Program-made: the position numbers and the translations under genes
The notes under the pieces: model-generated
Database searches by the model: none
What the model saw: the letters and a program-made list of their open reading frames with translations, nothing else
Told to the model about the DNA's origin: nothing
Shown: positions 37,666-40,813 of the stretch, piece after piece
Position numbering within the stretch: the first letter of the stretch is position 1
Layout of the letters: each line of letters opens with the position of its first letter
Assembly (NCBI RefSeq): GCF_000195315.1
Contig: NC_015389.1
Coordinates: 1,116,001 to 1,180,000 of the forward strand
Direction of reading: 5' to 3'
From: Coriobacterium glomerans PW2
Lineage (GTDB): Bacteria; Actinomycetota; Coriobacteriia; Coriobacteriales; Coriobacteriaceae
DNA length: 64,000 nucleotides

Positions 37666-39042
37666 TCAATGACGATCCGGGTCCTTTCGATCCGGCGTCG
37701 CCTCAGCGCCGGGTGACGATGCGACATCCGCCGGTAAGGACGAACAGCCGCTGCCATCCTCACCGCGCTTCGGCGATCCGCTCCGCGATGCAGCGCGCTT
37801 CTCAGCCAGAAACTCCATCTCATCAATAAAGCTATCGTCTCCGAGGGCATCGTAGGCGGCAACCGGCTGGCCATCGGCGTCTCGAAAGGGACGCCCCTTG
37901 AAGATCGCACCATCAGGTGAGATGAGCGCTCGTTTCGTCGATCCCTCGAAATAGAAAATGAACAAGCCCTTCAGAGCGGCGCACAGCGGGATCGCGATGA
38001 CCATTCCGAGTGCGCCCATGAGGGCGGAACCGGCCACGATGGCTGTCAGGCTCATCGCAGGATGGACCTGAACGGCGGATTGCATGATCTTGGGCGAGAT
38101 GACGTTGTCGGTGATGTTTTGCGACACGACCGCGACAACGAGAGTCCACGCAGCGAGGGCCGGACTGTAGAAGACCGCGATCAGCGTCGCGATCGAGCAG
38201 GAAACCCAGGGCCCGACGACGGGCACCAGATGAAACAGGGCCGCAAGCACCGCCATGAGCGCGGCATAGGGATGGCCGATGATCAAAAAGCCCGCATAGG
38301 CTAGCACGCCATTGATGAGCGAGGTGATGACCATGCCGCGCATGTAGCCACCCACAGATCGCGCGATGATCGCGATCATGAAATGGTAATTCAGCTCGTG
38401 ACGCTCACCGACGAGTATGCCGATCTCCCGGTGAATTCGAGGATAGTCGCGTGCGAGCCAGTAGGCCAGCACGAGCCCCAAAAAGAAGATGAACAGCTGC
38501 CAGGCGAACGCCGAGATAAACGGAAACACACCTTCGCCCACATCGCTGGCAACCTGTCGCATATACGACGACGCCACATCGGCGAGCGAACTCAGCGCCA
38601 TATCGAGCTGCGAGGCCCATGCGGACTGCGAAAGCGACCTGAACTCCTGAGATACGCTCACGACCCATTCCCCGAGCGATCTCAGCTGCTCGGGAAGCCT
38701 CGTCAATATCTCTAACGACTGCTGGGCGAAGACGGGCACGAGAACGACCCCGATGCAGATGACCACCGCGGCGATGACGAGCAGGCCGATGAGGGCGCCG
38801 ATGCCGCGGGGGACCCCCTTTCGCTCGAGCGCGCGCACCATGGGCGAAGCGATGAACGCAACAAGCGAGCCGACAGCCAGAAACTCCACGACGGCGGCGA
38901 GAACCCCGAGGACGCGCATGACCGCGACAGCGATAACGATCGCACCAACCGCGATCCACACGCGCAGAGCGATTCTGCGCTCAAAGGGCAGATCTCCCCT
39001 CGGGGTTCTCGCCGCACATGAACGCAGCCCATCGCTTATCAC
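37666..39042 (-). CDS. AI-2E family transporter (PerM-like permease)
   Basis: 458 residues with about eight membrane segments, a large soluble loop near the middle and the family segment HLVPVVGPW. Members are a mixed group: quorum-signal exporters, Na/H antiporters and uncharacterised permeases, so the substrate is not inferred. The start is a GTG that overlaps the sigma-factor stop (GTGA). The polar C-terminal 70 residues are low-complexity. The link to the sigma operon may make it stress-regulated. Confidence 0.85.
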   Translation of the reverse strand: MISDGLRSCAARTPRGDLPFERRIALRVWIAVGAIVIAVAVMRVLGVLAAVVEFLAVGSLVAFIASPMVRALERKGVPRGIGALIGLLVIAAVVICIGVVLVPVFAQQSLEILTRLPEQLRSLGEWVVSVSQEFRSLSQSAWASQLDMALSSLADVASSYMRQVASDVGEGVFPFISAFAWQLFIFFLGLVLAYWLARDYPRIHREIGILVGERHELNYHFMIAIIARSVGGYMRGMVITSLINGVLAYAGFLIIGHPYAALMAVLAALFHLVPVVGPWVSCSIATLIAVFYSPALAAWTLVVAVVSQNITDNVISPKIMQSAVQVHPAMSLTAIVAGSALMGALGMVIAIPLCAALKGLFIFYFEGSTKRALISPDGAIFKGRPFRDADGQPVAAYDALGDDSFIDEMEFLAEKRAASRSGSPKRGEDGSGCSSLPADVASSPGAEATPDRKDPDRH

Positions 39043-39828: not shown

Positions 39829-40215
39829 TCAGACATCCGCCTTGAGTTCGAGCTGAAGAGCAGCCGGATACTCACGTTTGACGTAGGAATCCGGCACCGC
39901 CGTCAGGATGAGATCCGTATAGACCGCCGTGGGTCCATGCGCATCCAACGAGGAGAGATGCACGTCACCGAGTTCGAACGTCATGCGAACCCGGCTCTGA
40001 TCGACCTCGAACTCAATGATGAGGCGCGCACCGGGCTCACAGGAACAGGCATAGATGAACGCCTCCTCCGCCACCATGCGGATATCCTCGATGCGATCAA
40101 CCGACATCGACGACAGCATCGCCACGTTCGCCGCTGTCATCCGAACGAGTCTGGCGAAGCGCGGGTCGGCGTGAACTTCAAGTGATATCGGCATATTCGG
40201 ACAATCACAGCTCAT
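39829..40215 (-). CDS. RsbW-like anti-sigma factor with degenerate ATP site
   Basis: A 128-residue protein aligning with RsbW/SpoIIAB through the segment IEDIRMVAEEAF. The N-box asparagine (EA..N in active kinases) is a tyrosine at residue 55 (EEAFIYACS), and the G1 box DxGxG and the G2 glycines are not recognisable. It therefore probably cannot bind or use ATP like RsbW. It directly precedes its likely target sigma gene, with a TGA stop two bases from the chosen sigma start. AAGGAG precedes the ATG at 40215, which overlaps the DUF948 gene by 11 nt. No RsbV gene is present. Confidence 0.75.
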   Translation of the reverse strand: MSCDCPNMPISLEVHADPRFARLVRMTAANVAMLSSMSVDRIEDIRMVAEEAFIYACSCEPGARLIIEFEVDQSRVRMTFELGDVHLSSLDAHGPTAVYTDLILTAVPDSYVKREYPAALQLELKADV

Positions 40216-40813
40216 ATGAGTTCTCCTTGTCATGTCCCACGGAGATCTCCTCGAAATATGGGAAGTCCGGATGGGCGGCTTCACGATATGTATAGTAGCG
40301 GCGCTGCGCCATGTGCTTCGGTGTCGTCGAGCTCGAGCGCATCGAGCTGTCACAGCAGTGCTTCAAGGCTCGCCCATCATGCAAGCAGGCGGAACCAGAG
40401 CGGCCCTTCGAGGATCCCGACCTCCGATCGAAGAACCTGTGCACCGCATCGGATGCAGAGACGGTGATACCGCTCACCGCGCTGCTCGCGTTCGCCGCGG
40501 CCCCGCTCACAGCCGACACATCGCGCACGATCGCCTCGACTTCGATCAGATCCGCCGAAAGCGCCTCGGTCGCCATGTTCGCGGATCTGATCAGCGGCTC
40601 GATCTGGCCGAGAGCAGGCTGCAACGCCTCGACCGTGGTGTCGAGGCGTCGCATGAGCGGATGGACCTCCTCGATGACGTCGGTGATCTCCTCGACCGTC
40701 CGATCGATCGACGAAATCGTCGCGCGCGCGCGACGGATGGTGAGCGCGACCTCAGAAACCGCCCAAATACCTGCGCAGACGAGCACAATGAGGACTATCT
40801 GTATGGGACCCAT
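40205..40813 (-). CDS. DUF948 membrane protein
   Basis: About 202 residues: one N-terminal membrane segment (IQIVLIVLVCAGIWAVSEVAL), then an amphipathic helical domain of DUF948 type (TISSIDRTVEEITDVIEEVHP onward), then a polar tail with several cysteines and a basic Tyr-rich patch. DUF948 proteins are linked to general stress (YtxG) in Bacillus; the biochemical role is unknown. The ATG at 40813 follows GGGAGG. It begins the sigma operon, so it may transmit envelope signals to the anti-sigma protein (inference). Confidence 0.8.
   Translation of the reverse strand: MGPIQIVLIVLVCAGIWAVSEVALTIRRARATISSIDRTVEEITDVIEEVHPLMRRLDTTVEALQPALGQIEPLIRSANMATEALSADLIEVEAIVRDVSAVSGAAANASSAVSGITVSASDAVHRFFDRRSGSSKGRSGSACLHDGRALKHCCDSSMRSSSTTPKHMAQRRYYTYREAAHPDFPYFEEISVGHDKENSYEL

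Follow-up and report, generated by a model that had tools for sequence, protein, structure and literature searches.

In the textbook partner switch, the anti-sigma factor itself phosphorylates its antagonist. A different division of labour was found by experiment in Mycobacterium smegmatis. There RsbW1 binds SigF but has no kinase activity, Ser63 of RsfB is phosphorylated by RsbW2, and RsfR removes the phosphate (PMC7693655, PMC10950880).

We propose that P0001, a small protein encoded directly before a SigB-type sigma gene, belongs with the kinase-less anti-sigma factors UsfX and RsbW1 and works within a split partner switch, a reading to which we give a probability of roughly 0.7. This is based on what was observed of its motif loss, fold, conservation and operon, and of the co-occurrence and linkage of the other parts of the switch, from which we infer the binding and phosphorylation steps.

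A putative anti-sigma gene without ATP-binding motifs

The gene for P0001 occupies positions 39829..40215 on the minus strand of the window (the whole 64-kb stretch of DNA that was analysed, 60.4% G+C, from a genome of 2,115,681 bp). Its 128-residue product is classed as an ATP-dead, RsbW/UsfX-like anti-sigma factor from its translation, Pfam, a profile match, AlphaFold, and Foldseek. In an alignment that takes SpoIIAB and full-length RsbW as references, together with UsfX verified against PDB 8ih8, residue 55 (codon at 40051..40053, minus strand; n = 90) is a Tyr and stands opposite SpoIIAB Asn50, the N-box residue that binds Mg-ATP. Neither a DxGxG nor a GxGxG motif is present in P0001, a G2 box is missing, and the ATP lid is about half as long in both the alignment and the AlphaFold model. 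At the G1 (DxGxG) site the translation reads T-F-E-L-G (39967..39981, minus strand), a possible degenerate remnant of that box. Such an x-F-x-L-G remnant is frequently visible in the class alignment of orthologues, in which a nearby Gly is often retained but the Asp and first Gly are not; 3 loci from 2 genomes read DFGLG by letters, and the Asn is missing there too. Two other positions are kept in 90 of 90 sequences, namely Glu51 (40063..40065, minus strand), which aligns with SpoIIAB Glu46, and Arg25 (40141..40143, minus strand), which aligns with SpoIIAB Arg20. Arg25 is also invariant in alignment A2; in SpoIIAB, Arg20 makes contact with both sigma and antagonist. On these motif losses, P0001 is almost certainly unable to use ATP in the way that RsbW does.

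Curated cut-offs place P0001 outside both HATPase_c_2 and the RsbW equivalogs. It scores 18.4 bits against Pfam HATPase_c_2 (cut-off 27.4), and 19.2, 19.7 and 11.9 bits against TIGR01924, NF003144 and TIGR01925 (cut-offs 155, 145 and 135). A profile built from 67 class-wide relatives nevertheless matches B. subtilis RsbW (6m36) at 6.7e-13 and UsfX (8jzt) at 0.0013. The AlphaFold model (pLDDT 90.5, pTM 0.84) shows a lidless GHKL fold with the topology strand-helix-helix-strand-strand-helix-strand-strand, and its 19 best PDB chains in Foldseek are all RsbW, UsfX or SpoIIAB. Matches to 6m36, 8ih8 and 8jzt reach a probability of 1.00 with TMq 0.61-0.73, and the solved complexes among the matches include UsfX-RsfB (8ih8) and SigF-UsfX (8jzt).

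P0001 is the middle gene of an operon on the minus strand. Upstream, the DUF948-like membrane protein P0003 (40205..40831, start uncertain; assigned from Pfam DUF948 and synteny, E 5.2e-6, 27 bits, under the 37.2 cut-off) ends in an 11-nt overlap with the start of P0001. Downstream, the SigB/SigF/SigG-type sigma factor P0002 (39039..39836; NCBIfam TIGR02980, 278 bits against a cut-off of 234) begins in an 8-nt overlap with the stop of P0001, or 1 nt after it if the next ATG is the start. To judge from these overlapping frames, P0001 is translationally coupled to the sigma gene. An AI-2E family transporter (37666..39042, minus strand; Pfam PF01594, 164.6 bits) follows as context. Autoregulation of the operon through a SigF-type promoter (GTTT-N12-18-GGGWA) was not supported, with an upstream match in 4 of 90 loci against 1.8 expected.

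An earlier reading of the DNA made from the letters alone (hereafter the sequence-only reading) had claimed that the N-box Asn is replaced by Tyr55, that no G1 or G2 box remains, and that the gene sits just before a SigB/SigF-type gene, with a DUF948 gene upstream; the alignment with SpoIIAB and the overlapping genes confirm all of this. Its further claim of a retained RsbW/SpoIIAB fold is borne out by the model and its Foldseek matches, and the structure prediction that it had suggested yields the lidless fold described above, with RsbW, UsfX and SpoIIAB as the best matches.

Conservation of the motif loss

Among 101 relatives, a P0001 orthologue is present in 72, comprising 61 of 61 genomes of the same family and, from elsewhere in the order, 11 of 40. 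The sigma orthologue is found in the same 72, the 29 others having RpoD-like matches at best. In the loci fetched from these relatives, the DUF948 and sigma genes flank the orthologue in 50 of 50 cases, and they do so too in 80 named GTDB loci, including Collinsella, Enorma, Atopobium, and Olsenella, none of which has Asn at the N-box site. Across 90 class sequences this site is Tyr in 69, Phe in 13, Leu in 5, and Cys, Trp and Gln in 1 each, with Asn in 0. The same gene order recurs in other orders of Coriobacteriia, where the site is Tyr, Phe or others and never Asn, and the sigma gene lies directly downstream of the anti-sigma gene in all fetched class loci. The sequence-only reading had called for a survey of orthologues for Tyr at this site, naming orthologues with an intact N-box and G1 box as what would count against it; we looked for such orthologues across the class and found none. 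The retention of P0001 in 72 of 101 relatives, its constant flanks (50 of 50), and the absence of Asn in both the 90 and the 80 sequences argue that its state is due neither to chance nor to decay. A lone pseudogene or a sequencing error is likewise rejected, since every orthologue shares this loss of motifs as a fixed trait and there are no stops.

How far does this pattern extend beyond the class? Of 40 loci from actinobacterial classes other than Coriobacteriia, 31 have an RsbW-like match beside the sigma gene, and 30 of these matches lack the Asn; in the remaining 9 loci no RsbW-like protein of the profile-detectable kind was found beside the sigma gene. The exception, L160, has an intact kinase as its sole RsbW-like gene, located downstream of the sigma gene. 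As the first profile was built from dead proteins, the survey was checked for bias with a second one built from intact kinases, which returned intact matches only as extra genes in two loci (L158 and L169) and as the sole gene in L160. UsfX of M. tuberculosis likewise has no DxGxG/G1 box and carries an Arg at the N-box site. In three loci of one family (L147, L148 and L170; family f40), a SigB-type gene with a DUF948-like gene upstream has no detectable RsbW-like gene adjoining it; the ORF between the DUF948-like and sigma genes of L170 has no Pfam match.

In an unrooted tree with six kinases only and long branches, one branch parts the dead proteins, UsfX included, from the kinases with a support of 100/98. 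When the motif columns were removed, so that the trait could not create its own clade, the split persisted in this unrooted, kinase-poor and long-branched tree with weaker support (95/75). This is suggestive, though no proof, of a single loss of the motifs among the dead proteins.

A candidate kinase, antagonist and phosphatase elsewhere in the genome

If P0001 is not a kinase, is there one? The sequence-only reading had held that no rsbV or PP2C gene is nearby, which is correct for the neighbourhood, as no STAS or SpoIIE-type PP2C gene lies within the 64-kb window, and incorrect for the genome, where both are present. Family searches at genome level (PF07228, PF01740, HATPase) recovered a separate intact GHKL kinase, a STAS antagonist with the DS[TS]G serine, and a PP2C phosphatase. 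The kinase, P0004, is a STAS-HATPase fusion of 277 aa at ~1.454 Mb that keeps the N, G1 and G2 boxes (EALSNAYDHA, DCGEG, RGRGIRLM). The stand-alone STAS protein of the RsbV type, P0005, lies at ~1.718 Mb and keeps the phosphorylatable serine of its DSTG motif. The GAF-SpoIIE (PP2C) phosphatase, P0006, is encoded two genes upstream of P0004, with a cation-efflux gene between them. These searches rule out, at the level of the genome, a system without any kinase, and give no support to the idea put forward in the sequence-only reading of a partner-switch variant lacking one. Most likely, the phosphorylation step has moved to another protein and has not been lost.

The distribution of these genes points the same way. 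A fusion-kinase match is found in the same 72 relatives that hold the sigma factor and the dead protein (in one, G079, the STAS part only), and a clear stand-alone STAS protein in all of those except G024 and G028. In 200 class genomes, the sigma factor and the fusion kinase each occur in 147, and stand-alone STAS in 144; 143 of them have both sigma and kinase, 4 have only the one, 4 only the other, and 49 neither, a table that overstates the number of independent events because presence and absence in Coriobacteriia largely track clades. One family (f2, probably Eggerthellaceae) is without the sigma factor, the fusion kinase, and a close STAS match. As much of it runs by clade, the co-occurrence supports a functional link and does not prove it. 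The full set in this genome, and the co-occurrence of its kinase with the sigma factor over the class, also speak against the earlier suggestion of control without phosphorylation. Many genomes of the class, among them G119, G143, G107, G152, G012 and G051, carry a PP2C gene next to that of the fusion kinase, often within ~150 nt.

Linkage in other genomes is a stronger clue than co-occurrence. In L093 (G161:C52), a locus of class Coriobacteriia, the genes for the dead protein and sigma have a STAS gene immediately before them on the same strand. In L140, L141, L142, L150 and L163 a divergent STAS gene lies just upstream of the dead protein and sigma. In L158 (2010-3659) and L169 (2008-3684), the dead protein, the sigma factor and an intact kinase (EASTNV, DHGxG) are encoded in tandem. 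Thus, these loci tie both an antagonist of the RsbV type and a separate kinase to the arrangement. As to the loci themselves, L158 and L169 come from two genomes of one actinobacterial family and unite the two halves of the split within a single operon. At L093 the DUF948 gene was not found, and the same genome carries a second anti-sigma/sigma pair (L109).

Some genomes hold these components in other proportions. The nearly complete genome G198 (same order, family f5) has the fusion kinase, stand-alone STAS and five SpoIIE-type PP2Cs with no SigB orthologue, and four other genomes of 2.1-3.7 Mb (G135, G175, G241 and G219) show an unusual expansion of SpoIIE-type phosphatase genes, of which they carry 10 to 15. 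Given G198 and the many PP2Cs of several genomes, the kinase may have other clients.

In light of these parts, how might the switch operate? In the split partner switch that we propose, P0001 would bind and silence the SigB-type sigma factor encoded directly downstream, and the stand-alone STAS protein P0005, when unphosphorylated, would draw P0001 off. Because P0001 cannot use ATP, the phosphorylation of P0005 is assigned to another protein, P0004, whose motifs are intact and whose substrate would be P0005. The phosphatase P0006 would then reverse this phosphorylation on a signal. The fusion kinase could, however, act on its own STAS domain alone.

The DUF948 protein and other explanations

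The alternative that survives best, which we nonetheless consider rather unlikely, is that the co-transcribed DUF948 membrane protein releases the anti-sigma factor without any phosphorylation. Its coiled-coil or Tyr-rich tail would respond to the condition of the envelope by binding P0001, or else the sigma factor, at the membrane. Translational coupling links the genes for the DUF948 protein, the anti-sigma factor and the sigma factor, and the three stay together over the order and in most class loci. In addition, the C-terminal tail of P0003 holds an R-Y-Y-T-Y motif (40286..40300, minus strand; motif search), and of 80 named Coriobacteriales loci 76 have the corresponding Y[YFV][TVD]Y in the DUF948 tail, against 0.2 expected from shuffled tails. 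In the remaining 4 of 80 there are close variants; the motif lies near the C-terminus, in a low-complexity tail. Against this, the DUF948 proteins that the class has outside Coriobacteriales are without the tail and motif, DUF948-like genes also stand upstream of the sigma gene where no RsbW-like protein was found (the family f40 loci above), and the full phosphorylation set is retained alongside the sigma factor. DUF948 proteins elsewhere, such as YtxG of B. subtilis, are members of stress regulons and, to our knowledge, are not known to be regulators.

The same motif allows a weaker proposal, which we hold to be quite doubtful, in which the Coriobacteriales DUF948 protein is a membrane-anchored extra partner, with a conserved C-terminal Tyr-x-x-Tyr peptide that docks on either the ATP-dead P0001 or the sigma factor. 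If true, an envelope signal and a phosphorylated-STAS signal would converge on one kinase-less hub, making this a membrane-tethered variant of the partner switch.

It is very improbable that P0001 is no sigma inhibitor at all and serves as a heterodimer partner or activator. The model for such a role is M. smegmatis RsbW3, a homologue of RsbW that lacks kinase activity and counteracts RsbW1 (PMC7693655). RsbW3, however, adjoins rsfA, and the mycobacterial gene that adjoins the sigma gene (RsbW1/UsfX) encodes the inhibitor; moreover, the genome gives a single P0001 match, hence no second close copy is seen with which it could pair.

Finally, we find it scarcely credible that a nucleotide still serves P0001 as a regulatory ligand through some unusual mode of binding. 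UsfX reportedly binds nucleotides, and P0001 keeps Glu51 and part of the G1 region, but neither the Asn nor the Asp of G1 nor the glycines of G2 are conserved, and the lid has about half its length.

Implications

Taking the class survey and the phylum sample together, the binding protein beside SigF/SigB-type genes in Actinomycetota is as a rule no kinase. The mycobacteria are therefore one case of a widespread split design and not an exception, and this design looks to be general across the phylum. In Coriobacteriia, among which Collinsella and Olsenella are common gut bacteria, our findings define a complete candidate circuit, with four proteins encoded at three loci; we found no study of stress control in this class in the literature. 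They also warn against annotating genes of the P0001 type as serine kinases.

Comparison with known systems

With RsbW of B. subtilis (6m36) and SpoIIAB (1l0o, 1th8, 1til), P0001 shares the fold, the operon position before the sigma gene, and the equivalents of Arg20 and Glu46. Those two proteins, however, are kinases with an N-box Asn, G1 box, lid and G2 box, all of which P0001 has lost.

The nearer relatives are UsfX (M. tuberculosis Rv3287c) and RsbW1 (M. smegmatis MSMEG_1803). Their genes, like that of P0001, immediately precede a SigF/SigB-type sigma gene, and the proteins adopt a GHKL fold with a short lid and neither the N-box Asn nor DxGxG, leaving the kinase activity to a separate protein. 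UsfX aligns with the class profile of P0001 relatives through the last helix. The differences are that UsfX has Arg, and not Tyr or Phe, at the N-box site, that the identity is low (16-19% in Foldseek), and that no DUF948 gene is described alongside UsfX or RsbW1.

At the level of the whole switch, a separate binding protein, kinase, STAS antagonist and PP2C phosphatase are shared with the RsbW1-RsbW2-RsfB-RsfR system of mycobacterial SigF (PMC7693655, PMC10950880). RsbW2 is a stand-alone protein adjoining rsfB (PMC7693655), whereas in Coriobacteriia the kinase is fused to STAS and usually adjoins a GAF-PP2C gene, with RsbV usually elsewhere. The P0006-P0004 pair also has the same kinds of domain as Rv1364c (PAS-PP2C-GHKL-STAS), which is a single polypeptide with another domain order, in contrast to a STAS-HATPase protein and a separate phosphatase. 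Motif loss of this kind is already known in mycobacteria, and the best reading of P0001 is that it joins the kinase-less anti-sigma factors of the UsfX/RsbW1 type.
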